Assembly: GCA_029055625.1 (NCBI GenBank)
Contig: JAIDCY010000042.1
Location: 1-46,548, forward strand
Length of the DNA stretch: 46,548 bases
DNA from: Ruminococcus sp.
GTDB lineage: Bacteria; Bacillota; Clostridia; Oscillospirales; Ruminococcaceae
Direction of reading: 5' to 3'
Of this stretch, positions 1,378-11,476 are shown piece by piece (positions within the stretch are counted from its first letter, which is position 1; each line of letters starts with the position of its first letter). The notes under the pieces are model-generated. The model ran no database searches and was not told where the DNA came from. It was given only the letters and a program-made list of their open reading frames with translations. Made by a program: the position numbers and the translations under genes.

Positions 1378-3142
1378 TAGTATGAAAGGTCTGAAACGTA
1401 CGCATTATTGCGGAGACGTGACAGAAATCGGACAGGAAGTAGTAGTTGGCGGATTCGTCGACAGGATAAGGAACAAAGGCGGAGTAATATTTATAGTACT
1501 CCGTGACAGAACAGGTATAGTACAGTTACTTTTCAACGACAAGTCAGACCCTGAAATTTTTGAAAAGGCTTCGACGTGCCGGGGTGAGTACGTACTGATG
1601 GCAAAAGGAAAGGTAGTTGAGAGGGAAAGTAAGAACTACAAGATAAAAACCGGTCTTGTTGAGATATTCGTTGAAGATTTGCGGATACTCGCAAAGGCAC
1701 AGACCACACCGTTTGAGATAGTAAGCGATTCAAACGTTAATGAAGAACTCCGCCTTAAATATCGTTATCTTGACTTACGCCGTGAACCGTTACAGAAAAA
1801 TATCATGATGCGACATGATATAGCGAGAGTAACAAGGGAATATTTTTACGAGAACGGTTTTCTTGAAATAGAAACTCCGATGATGATGAAGTCCACACCG
1901 GAGGGTGCGAGAGACTATTTAGTACCGTCAAGAGTACACCAGGGGAAATTTTACGCACTTCCGCAGTCGCCACAGATATATAAGCAGTTACTTATGATTT
2001 CCGGTTATGACAGGTATATCCAGCTTGCCCGGTGTTTCCGTGACGAAGACCTGAGAGCCGACAGACAGCCTGAATTTACGCAGATAGATTTAGAAATGTC
2101 GTTTGTTGATTCAGAAGATATTCAGGAATGTGTGGAGGGGTTCATACAGAGAGTATTTAAAGAGGTAATGGGCGTTGAAGTATCTGTACCGTTGCCGAGG
2201 CTGACGTTCGCAGATGCTATGAACCGATACGGTACGGATAAGCCTGATACGAGATTCGGCTTCGAGATACAGGATATTTCGGAGACGGTAAAGGATACCG
2301 ATTTTGTGGTATTCCGGAATGCTCTTGAAAGTGGCGGTACAGTCCGTGCGGTAAACGTAAAGAACGGAGCAGGTACTTACACACGTAAGGAGATAGACAA
2401 GCTGATTGAACACGCAAAAGGAATCGGAGCGAAAGGACTGGCATATATCAGGTGGGCAGATGAGCCGAACTGTTCGTTTAAGAAATTCCTGAAGGACGGC
2501 GAACTTGAGAGTATCTGCCAAACCGTCGGAGCGGAAAAAGGAGATTTAGTTCTGATATGTGCGGACAGGAAGAAGACCGTTCTTTCAACATTAGGGGCAA
2601 TCCGTCTGATATGCGGAAAACGTCTGAATGTGATACCGGAAGATAAATATAATTTCCTGTGGATCACGGAGATGCCGTTTTTCGAGTACGACGAGGAAAA
2701 CAGTACGTGGGTAGCGTCACACCACCCGTTTACAATGCCAATGGAAGAGTGTATAGAGTACCTCGATACAGATCCTGCTAATGTAAGGGCGAAAGCGTGG
2801 GATTTGGTACTGAACGGTACGGAACTTTCAAGCGGTTCAATGCGTATAACGGACTTTGAGTTACAGCAGAAGATGTTTTCCGCACTTGGAATGACAGATG
2901 AGGAAATACAGGCGAAATTCGGATTTCTCGTTGATGCGTACAGATACGGTGCACCCCCACATGGCGGAATGGGCATAGGTCTCGACCGTCTCGCAATGAT
3001 TATGTGTAAAGTCGACAGTCTGAGGGATGTTACAGCATTTCCGAAAGTACAGAATGCCAGTGAATTAATGTCGGAATGTCCGTCAACGGTAGACGAAGAC
3101 AGTCTCGACGTACTCGGAATAAAAATCGACATCAAAGAATAG
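1370..3142 (+). CDS. aspS: Aspartyl-tRNA synthetase
   Basis: Class II synthetase that charges tRNA-Asp. It has the bacterial architecture and 590 residues: N-terminal OB-fold anticodon domain (about 1-105), catalytic core with motif 2 (ARCFRDEDLRADRQPEFTQ), the bacterial GAD insertion at roughly 290-415, and motif 3 (GMGIGLDRLAM) near the C-terminus. The start ATG lies inside the end of hisS, with GGAG 9 nt upstream at 1357-1360. The hisS-aspS pair is a standard Firmicute arrangement. Whether it is discriminating or also charges tRNA-Asn cannot be settled here. No strong terminator follows the stop; a promoter for the next operon begins 28 nt later. Confidence 0.97.
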   Translation: MADSMKGLKRTHYCGDVTEIGQEVVVGGFVDRIRNKGGVIFIVLRDRTGIVQLLFNDKSDPEIFEKASTCRGEYVLMAKGKVVERESKNYKIKTGLVEIFVEDLRILAKAQTTPFEIVSDSNVNEELRLKYRYLDLRREPLQKNIMMRHDIARVTREYFYENGFLEIETPMMMKSTPEGARDYLVPSRVHQGKFYALPQSPQIYKQLLMISGYDRYIQLARCFRDEDLRADRQPEFTQIDLEMSFVDSEDIQECVEGFIQRVFKEVMGVEVSVPLPRLTFADAMNRYGTDKPDTRFGFEIQDISETVKDTDFVVFRNALESGGTVRAVNVKNGAGTYTRKEIDKLIEHAKGIGAKGLAYIRWADEPNCSFKKFLKDGELESICQTVGAEKGDLVLICADRKKTVLSTLGAIRLICGKRLNVIPEDKYNFLWITEMPFFEYDEENSTWVASHHPFTMPMEECIEYLDTDPANVRAKAWDLVLNGTELSSGSMRITDFELQQKMFSALGMTDEEIQAKFGFLVDAYRYGAPPHGGMGIGLDRLAMIMCKVDSLRDVTAFPKVQNASELMSECPSTVDEDSLDVLGIKIDIKE

Positions 3143-3169
3143 TTAATAAAATTAAATTTCTGAAAACTA

Positions 3170-3198
3170 TTGACAAAACGGAAATTATAGTATATAAT
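3170..3198 (+). promoter_or_regulatory. Sigma-A promoter P1 ahead of the V-ATPase leader
   Basis: TTGACA at 3170-3175, a spacer of exactly 17 nt, then TATAAT at 3193-3198: a perfect consensus housekeeping promoter. Predicted start near 3205. It would produce a leader of about 294 nt before ntpF that contains the 3213-3238 hairpin and both 3270-3373 hairpins. Confidence 0.85.
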
Positions 3199-3212
3199 AT
3201 AATTGTGTTTAG

Positions 3213-3238
3213 GATATGAATGTGTTTTTTTTCATATC
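3213..3238 (+). promoter_or_regulatory. Hairpin at the 5' end of the P1 transcript
   Basis: GATATGAA (3213-3220) and TTCATATC (3231-3238) form a perfect 8-bp stem around a 10-nt U-rich loop, starting about 8 nt after the predicted P1 start. It could be a 5' stabiliser or part of the larger leader. It is not a terminator for aspS if P1 starts at 3205. AT-rich, so moderate confidence. Confidence 0.5.
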
Positions 3239-3269
3239 TTTCACTTTTTTCTTTATGATGATGTGTGAT

Positions 3270-3373
3270 GGGAGCTGTCTGTAGGGATAGCTCCTGTTGC
3301 GTTATATTGTATAAATCGGTAAAAAAAATCAATAATGTTCAATGGGGAGCTGTCTGTAGGGTAGATGCTCCCC
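3270..3373 (+). promoter_or_regulatory. Tandem conserved hairpins, candidate structured leader of the ntp operon
   Basis: Two stem-loops share the identical 17-nt segment GGGAGCTGTCTGTAGGG (3270-3286 and 3345-3361). Hairpin 1 pairs GGAGCT (3271-3276) with AGCTCC (3289-3294). Hairpin 2 pairs GGGGAGC (3344-3350) with GCTCCCC (3367-3373). The stems differ in length and loop closure while the loop core TGTCTGTAGGG is identical, which suggests the loop is under selection. CTCCT at 3291-3295 is complementary to AGGAG of the ntpF ribosome site (3486-3490), a possible switch. A ligand- or protein-binding tandem RNA is inferred. I could not match it to a named riboswitch by eye. Confidence 0.6.
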
Positions 3374-3423
3374 TATGTTTTACGAAAAAACTGAATAAAA
3401 GTCATTTTTTTATTAAAAAGCTA

Positions 3424-3452
3424 TTGACAAATAAAAAATTTTGTGATATGAT
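3424..3452 (+). promoter_or_regulatory. Sigma-A promoter P2, proximal to ntpF
   Basis: TTGACA at 3424-3429, 17-nt spacer, TATGAT at 3447-3452. Predicted start near 3459. This promoter bypasses the tandem hairpins, giving the operon two transcripts: a long structured-leader form from P1 and a short form from P2. Confidence 0.8.
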
Positions 3453-3461
3453 AGTAAATAT

Positions 3462-3482
3462 AAAATGACCATTAGTCATTTT
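3462..3482 (+). promoter_or_regulatory. Inverted repeat at the P2 start site
   Basis: AAAATGAC (3462-3469), 5-nt spacer CATTA, GTCATTTT (3475-3482): a perfect 8-bp inverted repeat just after the predicted P2 start and just before the ribosome site GAGGAGGTGA (3485-3494). A half-site copy, AGTCATTTT, lies upstream at 3400-3408. It could be an operator for a repressor or a 5' stem-loop in both transcripts. Confidence 0.5.
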
Positions 3483-3498
3483 GTGAGGAGGTGATAGA

Positions 3499-3807
3499 AT
3501 GGCATCAGAGGCGGTAAACAGGATTCTGACGGCGGAAAGAGAATCAGGTGAGAAGACAGTACAGGCACGCAAGACCGCTGAAAATATCGTCACGGAGGCG
3601 GAAAGACGTTCAGTAATAGCGATACAGAAGAAAATAGGTCAGGCATCGGCGGAAATGGAAAAAATCCGTAACGATTACGCAAAAAAACTTGAAATCTATT
3701 CCCGAAAGTCAGATGAAAAATGTATCAGGAAATTAAAGGAAATCGAATCCAATGCGGAAAAAAATACGGAAAATGCGGTAACTGCGGTAATAGAAGAATT
3801 TTTCTGA
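3499..3807 (+). CDS. ntpF: V-type ATP synthase subunit F/G-like (peripheral stalk)
   Basis: First gene of the V-type ATPase operon, 102 residues, almost wholly alpha-helical, charged and heptad-like, as expected for the small peripheral-stalk subunit that pairs with subunit E (NtpF in Enterococcus hirae; AtpH or G in other schemes). No catalytic residues are expected. Alanine- and glutamate-rich N-terminal half, no membrane segment. A strong ribosome site, GAGGAGGTGA, precedes ATG by 4 nt. The assignment rests on length, coiled-coil character and position directly before the I subunit. Naming of this small stalk subunit differs between databases. Confidence 0.85.
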   Translation: MASEAVNRILTAERESGEKTVQARKTAENIVTEAERRSVIAIQKKIGQASAEMEKIRNDYAKKLEIYSRKSDEKCIRKLKEIESNAEKNTENAVTAVIEEFF

Positions 3808-3823: not shown

Positions 3824-5776
3824 ATGTCAAAACTGGAGATGAAAAAAATTGAATTAATCGCAATGCTGACGGACAGTAAAAAAATTATCGAACTGTTACA
3901 ACGCCGTGGAGTAGTGGAAATATCAAGGAATGCGGACGGTCTCGACTATATGAACGTAACCGGAGTAATCGGAGAGTTCGAGAAGTTCCGTAATATAGCG
4001 GTGCAGGCGTTAGGAGTTCTCGACCGGTACGCACCGGAAAAAAAATCGGTGACGGAAATTTTCGGGAGTAAGTCGGAAATGGACATCAATAAGTTCGGCA
4101 GTAACGCAATGCAACTTGAAAAAATTATGACGGTTGCCGGTGAGATAGTCAGGAGCAGTCAGGAGATAACGGAATCTGAAAAGAAGATACTACAGCTTAA
4201 CGTCCGGTGCGATACACTCCGGCAGTGGAAAAATCTTGATATACCGGTAAATTTCAAGGGTACGGCTACTACAACCGCTTTCATAGGTTCAGTACCATCA
4301 GCTGTTGACATCACGGAAATTTTACCGGAAAACACGTACACGGAAACAGTTTACCGTTCAAAAGAAATAACGGATATTTTCGTGATAAGTCATAAGGAAA
4401 CGGCAGACGATACAGCGGATATTCTCCGGAAAAACGGCTTTATACCGCTATCAGAAACGGATAGTCACACACCGGCGGAGATAATAAAATCATGTGAGAA
4501 AGAACGGCAGAATTTATTAAAATATATTACGGAACTTGAAAAGCATATCACCGGATTTGCCGGACAGCGTAAAAATCTTGAATTTGCGGTAGACTATCTG
4601 AGTATGCGGAAAGACAAGTATAATGCGTTAAACCTGCTCGGATTCACAGAGAATACATTTGTACTGAACGGCTATATTCCGGAAAAATATACGGATAAAC
4701 TGCGTAAGGAGTTGGAAAGTAAATTCACGGTTTACGTTGATTTTACCGAACCGTCTGAAGATGACGATGTACCGGTATTACTTGAAAACGGCAATTTTTC
4801 CGCACCGGTGGAGAGTATCACAAAGATGTACGCTATGCCGTCGAAGTCGGACGTAGACCCTACCCCGATAATGTCATTTTTTTACTATTTATTTTTCGGT
4901 ATGATGCTGTCAGATGCCGGTTACGGTCTTGTAATGCTTATCGGTACAACGATAATATTAAAGAAATTCCGGCTTGACGATACCATGAAAAAAACAATGA
5001 CAATGTTCAGGAACTGCGGAATATCAACGATAATATGGGGTGCGTTATTCGGAAGCTGGTTCGGGGATATAGTACAGGTAATAGGACGTGAATATTTCGG
5101 AAAGGAAATCGGCAGTATAGCGATATGGTTTCAGCCCCTTGATGACCCTATCAGATTATTGTTATACTCATTCGGATTAGGAATACTGCACCTGTTCTTA
5201 GGTGTGGGAGTGTCATTTAAGATGTCGTGGGACGAGGGGAAAAAACTTGATGCAATTCTCGATACAGTACCGGTTTACCTGACAATTATTGGTGTCGCAC
5301 CGTTAGCAAGTAGCATACTTGTAAGCGTTCCGGCGATAATGAAGACTATCGGAACTTATCTGATGATAGCCGGAATAGTTCTGATAATTCTTACGTCCGG
5401 ACGTTCTTCAAAATCGGTTATGGGAAAATTTTTCGGCGGACTTTACGCACTGTACAATACCGCAACCGGATATTTAAGTGATATACTGTCATATTCCCGA
5501 CTTCTTGCGTTAGGACTTGCAACGGGTAGCATAGCCGGAGTAATAAACCTGATAGGCACTATGCCGGAAAATATGATAGTAAAGACCGTACTTTTATTGA
5601 TAGTCTTCATAGTCGGACACACAGCAAATCTCGCAATAAATCTGTTAGGAGCTTACGTACACACCGACAGATTGCAGTTTGTGGAACTTTTTTCAAAATT
5701 CTACACCGGTGGTGGCAGGGAGTTCAGACCGTTCACCGCAGATACAAAATACATCAATTTCAGGGAGGATATTTGA
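3824..5776 (+). CDS. ntpI: V-type ATP synthase subunit I (membrane a subunit)
   Basis: Stator membrane subunit that forms the ion half-channels against the K ring. 650 residues: a soluble helical N-terminal arm of about 340 residues, then a block of hydrophobic segments (starting near FFYYLFFGMMLSDAGYG) running to about residue 620. Conserved family sequence includes YSRLLALGLATGSIAGVIN in a late transmembrane helix, with the functional arginine, and GHTANLAINLLGAYVHT near the end. The ATG follows AAAGGGGTGAT with good spacing, 16 nt after ntpF. Length and order match the E. hirae I subunit. Confidence 0.95.
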   Translation: MSKLEMKKIELIAMLTDSKKIIELLQRRGVVEISRNADGLDYMNVTGVIGEFEKFRNIAVQALGVLDRYAPEKKSVTEIFGSKSEMDINKFGSNAMQLEKIMTVAGEIVRSSQEITESEKKILQLNVRCDTLRQWKNLDIPVNFKGTATTTAFIGSVPSAVDITEILPENTYTETVYRSKEITDIFVISHKETADDTADILRKNGFIPLSETDSHTPAEIIKSCEKERQNLLKYITELEKHITGFAGQRKNLEFAVDYLSMRKDKYNALNLLGFTENTFVLNGYIPEKYTDKLRKELESKFTVYVDFTEPSEDDDVPVLLENGNFSAPVESITKMYAMPSKSDVDPTPIMSFFYYLFFGMMLSDAGYGLVMLIGTTIILKKFRLDDTMKKTMTMFRNCGISTIIWGALFGSWFGDIVQVIGREYFGKEIGSIAIWFQPLDDPIRLLLYSFGLGILHLFLGVGVSFKMSWDEGKKLDAILDTVPVYLTIIGVAPLASSILVSVPAIMKTIGTYLMIAGIVLIILTSGRSSKSVMGKFFGGLYALYNTATGYLSDILSYSRLLALGLATGSIAGVINLIGTMPENMIVKTVLLLIVFIVGHTANLAINLLGAYVHTDRLQFVELFSKFYTGGGREFRPFTADTKYINFREDI

Positions 5777-5779
5777 TTT

Positions 5780-6256
5780 ATGAACAGTATAGGTTTAGCA
5801 CTCGCAATAATAGGAGCATCTCTGGCAACTCTTTTTGCCGGAATCGGTTCAGCAAAAGGAGTCGGATTAGTAGGAGAGGCGGCAGCCGGTGTGGTATCGG
5901 TTGACCCCGATAAGTTCAGTAAGGTGCTTGTTCTGCAACTCCTGCCAGGTACGCAGGGGCTGTACGGACTTCTTACGGCAATTCTGATGTTAAGCCGTAT
6001 CGGTGTTATCGGCGGAAATGTAACGGAATTAACGGTAGCACAGGGCTTAATGTTTCTTGGTGCATCGTTACCGATAGCGATAGTAGGTTTGTTTTCGGGT
6101 ATCGCTCAGGGACGTTCAGCGGCGGCAGGAGTTGGCATAACAGCCCGTAAACCCGAACATAACGGAAAAGCCATCATAATGGCGGCAATGGTTGAAACGT
6201 ATGCAATTTTAGCACTGCTGGTATCGATACTGCTGATTTACAACATCGCAATATGA
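5780..6256 (+). CDS. ntpK: V-type ATP synthase subunit K (rotor proteolipid), sodium-type
   Basis: Rotor ring subunit of 158 residues with four predicted membrane helices, a duplicated proteolipid fold. The ion site is visible: LLPGTQG gives Leu55, Thr58 and Gln59; GIAQG gives Gln110; VETYAIL gives the carboxylate Glu139. These correspond to the Na+ ligands described for E. hirae NtpK (Leu61, Thr64, Gln65, Gln110, Glu139), so Na+ coupling is inferred. A single glutamate per four-helix subunit is the V-type pattern. It starts 3 nt after the ntpI stop, with AGGGAGGAT upstream inside ntpI. Confidence 0.95.
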   Translation: MNSIGLALAIIGASLATLFAGIGSAKGVGLVGEAAAGVVSVDPDKFSKVLVLQLLPGTQGLYGLLTAILMLSRIGVIGGNVTELTVAQGLMFLGASLPIAIVGLFSGIAQGRSAAAGVGITARKPEHNGKAIIMAAMVETYAILALLVSILLIYNIAI

Positions 6257-11237: not shown

Positions 11238-11280
11238 TTCATAGCACGAACGTGAACGAACGTACACGAATAGCACCGAT

Positions 11281-11367
11281 ACAGATACAGAAACAGATAC
11301 TGATAAAGATACAGATACAGAAACAGATACTGATAAAGATACAGATAAAGATACAGAAACAGATACT
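11281..11367 (+). repeat. Hexanucleotide tandem repeat between ntpB and ntpD
   Basis: A 30-nt unit at 11281-11310 is repeated exactly at 11311-11340, with a partial third copy to 11367. The unit is five hexamers: ACAGAT, ACAGAA, ACAGAT, ACTGAT, AAAGAT. The tract is purine-rich and strongly biased between strands. It lies within the 239-nt gap 11238-11476, in which TATTAATTC also recurs three times (11232-11240, 11367-11375, 11443-11451). Read as protein, one frame would give a Thr-Asp-Glu-Lys string, but a stop codon at 11242 separates it from ntpB. A slippage-expanded spacer is the simplest reading. Confidence 0.9.
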
Positions 11368-11476
11368 ATTAATTCGCACGCACAATTTCCTGACGGAAAA
11401 TTTTGCGTTTTGTGTGTGTGATTATAATTCTTAATTATTAATTATTAATTCGATAAAGTGTGGTGATTTTTTAAAG

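Follow-up and report, generated by a model that had tools for sequence, protein, structure and literature searches.

A near-invariant terminator-like hairpin, probably a cis-acting RNA, in the leader of the Na+-type V-ATPase operon of Ruminococcus

The window, the whole 46,548-nucleotide stretch of DNA analysed here, carries a V-ATPase operon whose leader contains two promoters, two copies of a terminator-like hairpin and a palindrome. These features, together with the first genes of the operon, are arranged as follows.

3170..3198, + strand: promoter P1, TTGACA-17-TATAAT, 12/12 consensus letters matched
3211..3240, + strand: small additional hairpin between P1 and hairpin 1, GATATGAA...TTCATATC, paired in the MFE fold
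3264..3302, + strand: element copy 1 (hairpin 1), terminator-like, matching covariance model R1 at E 7.0e-13; 5' arm GGGAGC at 3270-3275, loop strand TGTCTGTAG at 3276-3284, 3' arm GCTCCT at 3290-3295
3339..3389, + strand: element copy 2 (hairpin 2), matching model R1 at E 2.3e-9; 5' arm GGGGAGC at 3344-3350, loop strand TGTCTGTAG at 3351-3359, 3' arm GCTCCCC at 3367-3373
3388..3408, + strand: O1, degenerate copy of O2, the palindrome farther downstream (repeat family D2, 76%)
3424..3452, + strand: second promoter P2, 3' of both hairpins, 11/12 consensus letters matched
3462..3482, + strand: O2, palindrome AAAATGAC-CATTA-GTCATTTT (that is, AAAATGACCATTAGTCATTTT), adjoining the P2 start, a probable operator judged from its sequence
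3486..3491, + strand: Shine-Dalgarno sequence of ntpF, placed from its sequence
3499..3807, + strand: ntpF-like gene, first of the V-ATPase operon, an ORF of 102 aa that precedes ntpI in relatives
3824..5776, + strand: ntpI, V-ATPase subunit I
5780..6256, + strand: ntpK, Na+-type rotor subunit; best PDB match 2bl2, E. hirae NtpK, E 1.6e-46

Farther into the operon, about fifteen GATACA-like hexamer repeats (11278-11366) lie between ntpB and ntpD, within a low-complexity short ORF at 11252-11434. Judged by the sequence of its rotor subunit, the pump encoded in the window is a Na+-type V-ATPase, in agreement with an earlier suggestion that it probably moves Na+: residues L61, T64, Q65, Q110 and E139, which we take to be the Na+ ligands of E. 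hirae NtpK, are all retained in the window's NtpK.

The two hairpins of the window are copies of one element. As the initial annotation of this DNA had observed, they share an identical 17-mer, GGGAGCTGTCTGTAGGG, which is found exactly at 3270-3286 and at 3345-3361, and both of them fold. Hairpin 1 (3264-3300) reaches -22.4 kcal/mol (z -8.1), with 0 of 200 shuffles equally low, and hairpin 2 (3340-3380) reaches -17.9 kcal/mol (z -3.2), with 4 of 200 shuffles equally low; the whole leader (3207-3498) folds with a z of -5.5. The stems, however, extend higher than they had first been drawn, leaving apical loops of 4 and 5 nt, and the proposed 'loop core' is therefore partly paired in the window's strain. 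The perfect promoter that had been placed at the start of the leader is present as P1. Three features had been overlooked: P2, the palindrome at 3462-3482, and the 71-nt distance from P1 to hairpin 1, in which the surplus stretch (3206-3263) contains a small hairpin of its own. A transcript started at P2 in the window would include neither copy of the element.

Leaders of relatives were gathered via ntpI, via a 16-mer with up to two mismatches, and via covariance model R1, which was built from 52 hairpins. The genus set comprised 125 genomes from the genus to which the window belongs, identified as Ruminococcus through its named relatives. Strong R1 matches, at E 5.4e-9 or better, occur in 93 of these genomes; the next match has an E of 4.4e-7, and the line was placed in this gap after the gap had been seen. 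At E 0.1, any R1 match is found in 108 of the 125. Leaders from 91 of the 93 element-bearing genomes (G110 and G026 being left aside), with 105 hairpins, were compared letter by letter. Rows were counted if they resembled the core with at most 4 mismatches in 16 (the largest number seen was 2), and the counts describe the elements found in this way.

Across these leaders, the element is a terminator-like hairpin, GGGAGC...GCUCCC, with a U-rich tail, a near-invariant 5' strand, GGGAGCUGUCUGUAG, and a loop strand, UGUCUGUAG, with the core CUGUCUGUA. Thirteen of the 15 letters of GGGAGCUGUCUGUAG (1-8, 10-12, 14 and 15) are identical in all 105 hairpins, letter 9 is the same in 104 and letter 13 in 99, and CUGUCUGUA is exact in 98; for scale, ntpI identity to the window falls as low as 61% across the genus genomes. 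At least 5 U are found among the 8 nt past the stem in 98 of 105 hairpins, although this tract is interrupted, and poor in some cases (L159 and the window copies). The element is duplicated as a unit, with two copies in 15 genomes, including that of the window, and one copy in 78. A 15-letter search of the window's genome, on either strand and with up to two mismatches, returned only one further matching site.

Pairing is retained while the 3' arm drifts. Among the 105 hairpins, 628 of 630 stem pairs are standard, and G-U replaces G-C in 50. The closing base pair is seen in six standard types (AU 51, GU 31, UA 6, GC 4, UG 3, CG 1) and as UU in 9, and is thus paired in 96 of 105. In the 52-row alignment, the share of paired cells is 92%; sliding the partner lowers it to 49-70%, and shuffling columns to 90%. 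Three measures surpass every one of 500 shuffles of this alignment, namely the covariation score and the counts of paired cells and of two-sided cells, whereas at least as many pairs with change on both sides (2) arise in 196 of 500 shuffles and at least as many pair types in 33. Covariation inside the genus is modest and for the most part confined to the 3' side, as C to U changes, because the GGGAGC arm is invariant there; two-sided changes come from the stem base and from lineages outside the genus. The expectation of a functional RNA with a conserved loop on changing stems is nonetheless borne out, both by the 93 genomes and by the variety of closing pairs.

The element accompanies the operon. 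ntpI was found in 98 of the 125 genus genomes (E 1e-30), and 93 genomes have both element and ntpI, 5 ntpI only, none the element only, and 27 neither; a strong R1 match is absent from every one of the 27 genomes without ntpI. Two of the ntpI-only genomes (G004, G119) hold ntpI fragments only, and in a third (G156) the contig stops inside ntpF. In the remaining two (G011, G125), the operon is present, and the leader ahead of it is readable and lacks the element. By eye, G125 (L149) and G011 (L029/L150) have in common an alternative, structured-looking leader before ntpF, UUGAAGnAGUAUAGCUGCCUUCAnCAGU inside UAUUAUUGU/ACAAUAAUA, where the element would stand. All strong matches in the 91 genomes examined precede ntpF. 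Distant V-ATPase leaders (L033, L141-L146, L082, L084 and L085) have at least 4 mismatches in 16 at their closest, and no Rfam match was found in them.

To look beyond the genus, evenly drawn sets of 295 genomes from the order and 391 from the class were searched. The strongest matches that came from outside the genus lay at ntpF, in G253 (L118), of another family of the order, and in G543 (L137), of another order. Among 51 genomes of G543's order, G764 (L159) was the one further find, which makes 2/51, L137 and L159 belonging to one genus; the 12 genomes screened from G253's family yielded only L118 (1/12). The element is thus rare outside the genus and the finds are sparse, both counts being taken regardless of whether the operon is present. 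At L118, L137 and L159, the element lies directly 5' of an ntpF-like gene; the stems are GGGGAGC/GGUUCCCC, GGGAGC/GCUCCC with an inner bulge, and GGGGGC/GCCCCC, and the loop retains CUGUCUGUA. The other outer matches inspected, all of those listed but L120 and L123, look like ordinary terminators (L119, L121, L122, L124, L125, L138-L140 and L158).

The position of the hairpin relative to its promoter is also constrained. Of the 91 leaders, 90 have a P1-like promoter 5' of the element, the spacer being 17 in 87, and the sole leader without one (G142) is at a contig end. In 85 of the 91, a distance of 24-31 nt separates the -10 box from the stem, the rest having 20, 35, 38, 41 and, in the window, 71 nt. 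Outside the genus, this distance is 30 nt in L118 and 29 nt in L159; in L137, the sole promoter from the same scan sits 86 nt off. Consensus matching places a P2 in 72 of the 91 leaders; a few of these calls carry three mismatches and may be chance. The scan used found no P2 in the other 19, where the hairpin lies within the sole visible 5' leader, and in several P2-less genomes (L030, L114, L199, L118, L137, L159) the stem begins 55-72 nt 5' of the ntpF start codon. The palindrome TGAC[CT]-N2-4-[AG]GTCA is present in 66 of 91 leaders and, beside P2, is a probable operator for a V-ATPase transcription factor.

Additional signals surround the stem. Taken over 89 of the 91 leaders, the stretch of about 20 nt on its 5' side folds on itself more strongly than shuffles (MFE -1.8 vs -1.0, 0/200 shuffles), and its pairing with the tail of the same leader is stronger than with the tails of other species (-6.9 vs -5.9, 0/10000 permutations). 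A set of 52 segments agrees with this; species differ widely, and many have neither pairing. Neither the local nor the tail pairing reaches the 5' arm, and no antiterminator covering that arm was found. Of these 89 leaders, 27 have UGAAUA 5' of the stem, where mononucleotide shuffles give 1.9 on average, and GAAUA is present in 37, beginning 13-17 nt before the stem (GGGAGC) in 36, which hints at a second functional patch. A leader peptide was considered and set aside: inspection by eye shows that the frame differs from species to species and that the third positions of codons do not vary.

Comparison with known RNA classes gave no assignment. Rfam 15 at gathering score returned 0 matches over the window. 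Over 3100-3520, at E up to 10, it returned 6 chance-level matches, the best at E 0.86 and all far below cut-offs, and over 23 related loci, at E up to 1, it returned 3 matches, again all below cut-offs. One of the sub-threshold matches, to mir-46 at L008, overlaps the element and was taken as a generic hairpin match. The lithium riboswitches nhaA-I and nhaA-II, which likewise precede alkali-ion transport genes according to the part of PMC9646797 consulted, were not among the Rfam 15 matches in the window or in 3100-3520, their presence in that release being assumed. Earlier proposals that the leader might belong to the Na+-riboswitch (DUF1646) class or to another Rfam riboswitch family accordingly found no match in the window or its leader. 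Of the outcomes that had been named as counting against a functional RNA, neither a lack of covariation nor a lack of conservation arose, whereas the lack of a match to any RNA model did. In the literature, as represented mostly by titles and the beginnings of abstracts, no such leader is named, and a 224-motif survey may describe one; in the part of Weinberg 2010 (PMC2864571) consulted, mentions of ATPase, ATP synthase, Ruminococc and sodium came to one, about another motif.

The closest known counterpart is Na+-I (DUF1646 motif, RF03071 'Sodium'). In the available part of White et al. (PMC9337991), Na+-I riboswitches are reported at V-type ATPase genes of enterococci and clostridia, in the 5' leaders of Na+-coupled genes, and described as terminator-based ON switches. 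The element resembles them in standing before Na+-related genes, here a Na+-type NtpK, in being short (the Na+-I model has 55 positions), and in a two-hairpin layout, where Na+-I has its conserved loop in the second hairpin and works via a terminator (PMC9337991, as far as consulted); unlike Na+-I, the element has its conserved loop in the terminator-like stem itself. The Na+-I model (cut-off 40.5 bits) matched neither the window nor its leader, and under stricter filters none of the 125 genus genomes passed the cut-off; four sub-threshold matches, the best at 24 bits, all lie on non-V-ATPase contigs. As a positive control, the same model found 6 of 148 class genomes above cut-off. When the consensus was compared by eye, the conserved Na+-I clusters GGUUG, UUCAAGA and CUUCUGGGGUGGGAAG were absent from the element leaders. 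UUCAA alone stands before some stems, such as copy 2 of the tandem clade, and Na+-I P2 with its CUUCUGGGGUGGGAAG is not matched by the loop strand of the element. Lacking both a model match and these clusters, the element is ruled out as a Na+-I riboswitch.

What these leaders show directly is the conserved element, with its pairing, geometry and linkage to the operon, and a functional cis-acting RNA of the V-ATPase operon is very probable. The 19 of 91 leaders without P2 count in favour of the cis role. We lean towards attenuation by the terminator-like hairpin: as in intrinsic-terminator attenuators, a stable, GC-rich stem with a U-rich tail lies close to the promoter, in the 5' leader of the operon, although the element departs from these in that its loop strand is near-invariant and no antiterminator is seen to compete with it. 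RNA polymerase would initiate at P1, make about 20 nt, and then meet the terminator-like hairpin (GGGAGC/GCUCCC, U-rich tail). A factor recognising the loop strand (core CUGUCUGUA) would decide between stopping and reading through, and P1 read-through into ntpF would thereby be tuned. P2, past the hairpin and bearing the operator, would supply the operon independently in most species. On balance, we favour describing the element as a cis-acting leader RNA dedicated to the Na+ V-ATPase operon and without an Rfam match, for which attenuation and the recognising factor are inferred. We think that the partner is most likely a protein, with a small ligand or ion next, because one short near-invariant loop, a changing stem, duplication as a unit and restriction to one operon would suit a docking site better than an aptamer.

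Direct sensing of Na+ or another ligand, a reading that overlaps with attenuation, is a less probable possibility. In Ruminococcus, a small riboswitch for an ion or a metabolite, Na+ being the obvious candidate, would then occupy the place that Na+-I holds at enterococcal and clostridial V-ATPase operons, and we regard this as doubtful. The Na+-type pump and the second patch, UGAAUA, are consistent with it, and so is the association of Na+-I with V-type ATPase genes elsewhere, set against its absence from the genus. Intracellular Na+ reportedly regulates ntp transcription in E. hirae, as a 1996 title by Murata puts it. Strict conservation, however, covers only about 9-15 letters in one simple hairpin, which is small for an aptamer, and a sensor of Na+ should turn up beside further Na+ genes as well, whereas the finds examined (91 of 93 genomes and three outside) lie only before ntpF.

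It is improbable that P1 and the hairpin make an independent small RNA, which would pair with other messages through its loop and be linked to the V-ATPase only historically. The strong P1, a terminator-like hairpin at about +20 and a P2 able to drive the operon in most species would suit such an RNA, but no high-scoring element occurs in genomes without ntpI, and the element also occurs in leaders that lack a visible aspS within the upstream stretch examined. The short distance from stem to ntpF start codon in several P2-less genomes and the single other 15-letter site in the window's genome likewise argue against it. We also give little credence to a passive terminator or 5' stabilising hairpin that senses nothing. 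Stem and tail do resemble the gene-end terminators of the same genomes, but 10 weaker R1 matches, inspected singly, proved to be ordinary terminators with varying loops, none with the constant loop of the element, which moreover lies about 20 nt past a promoter rather than past a gene. Very unlikely is the switch first proposed, in which a freed 3' arm (CTCCT) masks the ribosome site (AGGAG) of ntpF: the pairing exists and is striking in P2-less L159 (CCCCCUU with AAGGGGGG) and in L086/L089, but own pairs are no better than species-swapped ones (-9.0 vs -8.6, p 0.16, n=22 without P2; p 0.54, n=72 with P2; flawed rows being G117 with a wrong start, G137 with a start 326 nt away and, in the with-P2 set, G061 with an upstream start), and the window's P2 starts 3' of both hairpins.

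Species of Ruminococcus are major fibre degraders of the rumen and gut. The element in their V-ATPase leaders looks like an undescribed RNA switch or a protein-docking site for the pump. More tentatively, and at rather low probability, it may represent a second, unrelated Na+-sensing class, a 'Na+-II' type leader replacing Na+-I in Ruminococcus and scattered other Clostridia, or a feedback site for pump state or a subunit. Because the loop strand is kept nearly letter for letter across the genus and in other lineages, and before one operon only, it offers a compact, testable regulatory target; if Na+ is indeed sensed, this operon would be a case in which two unrelated RNAs have arisen to serve a single ion.
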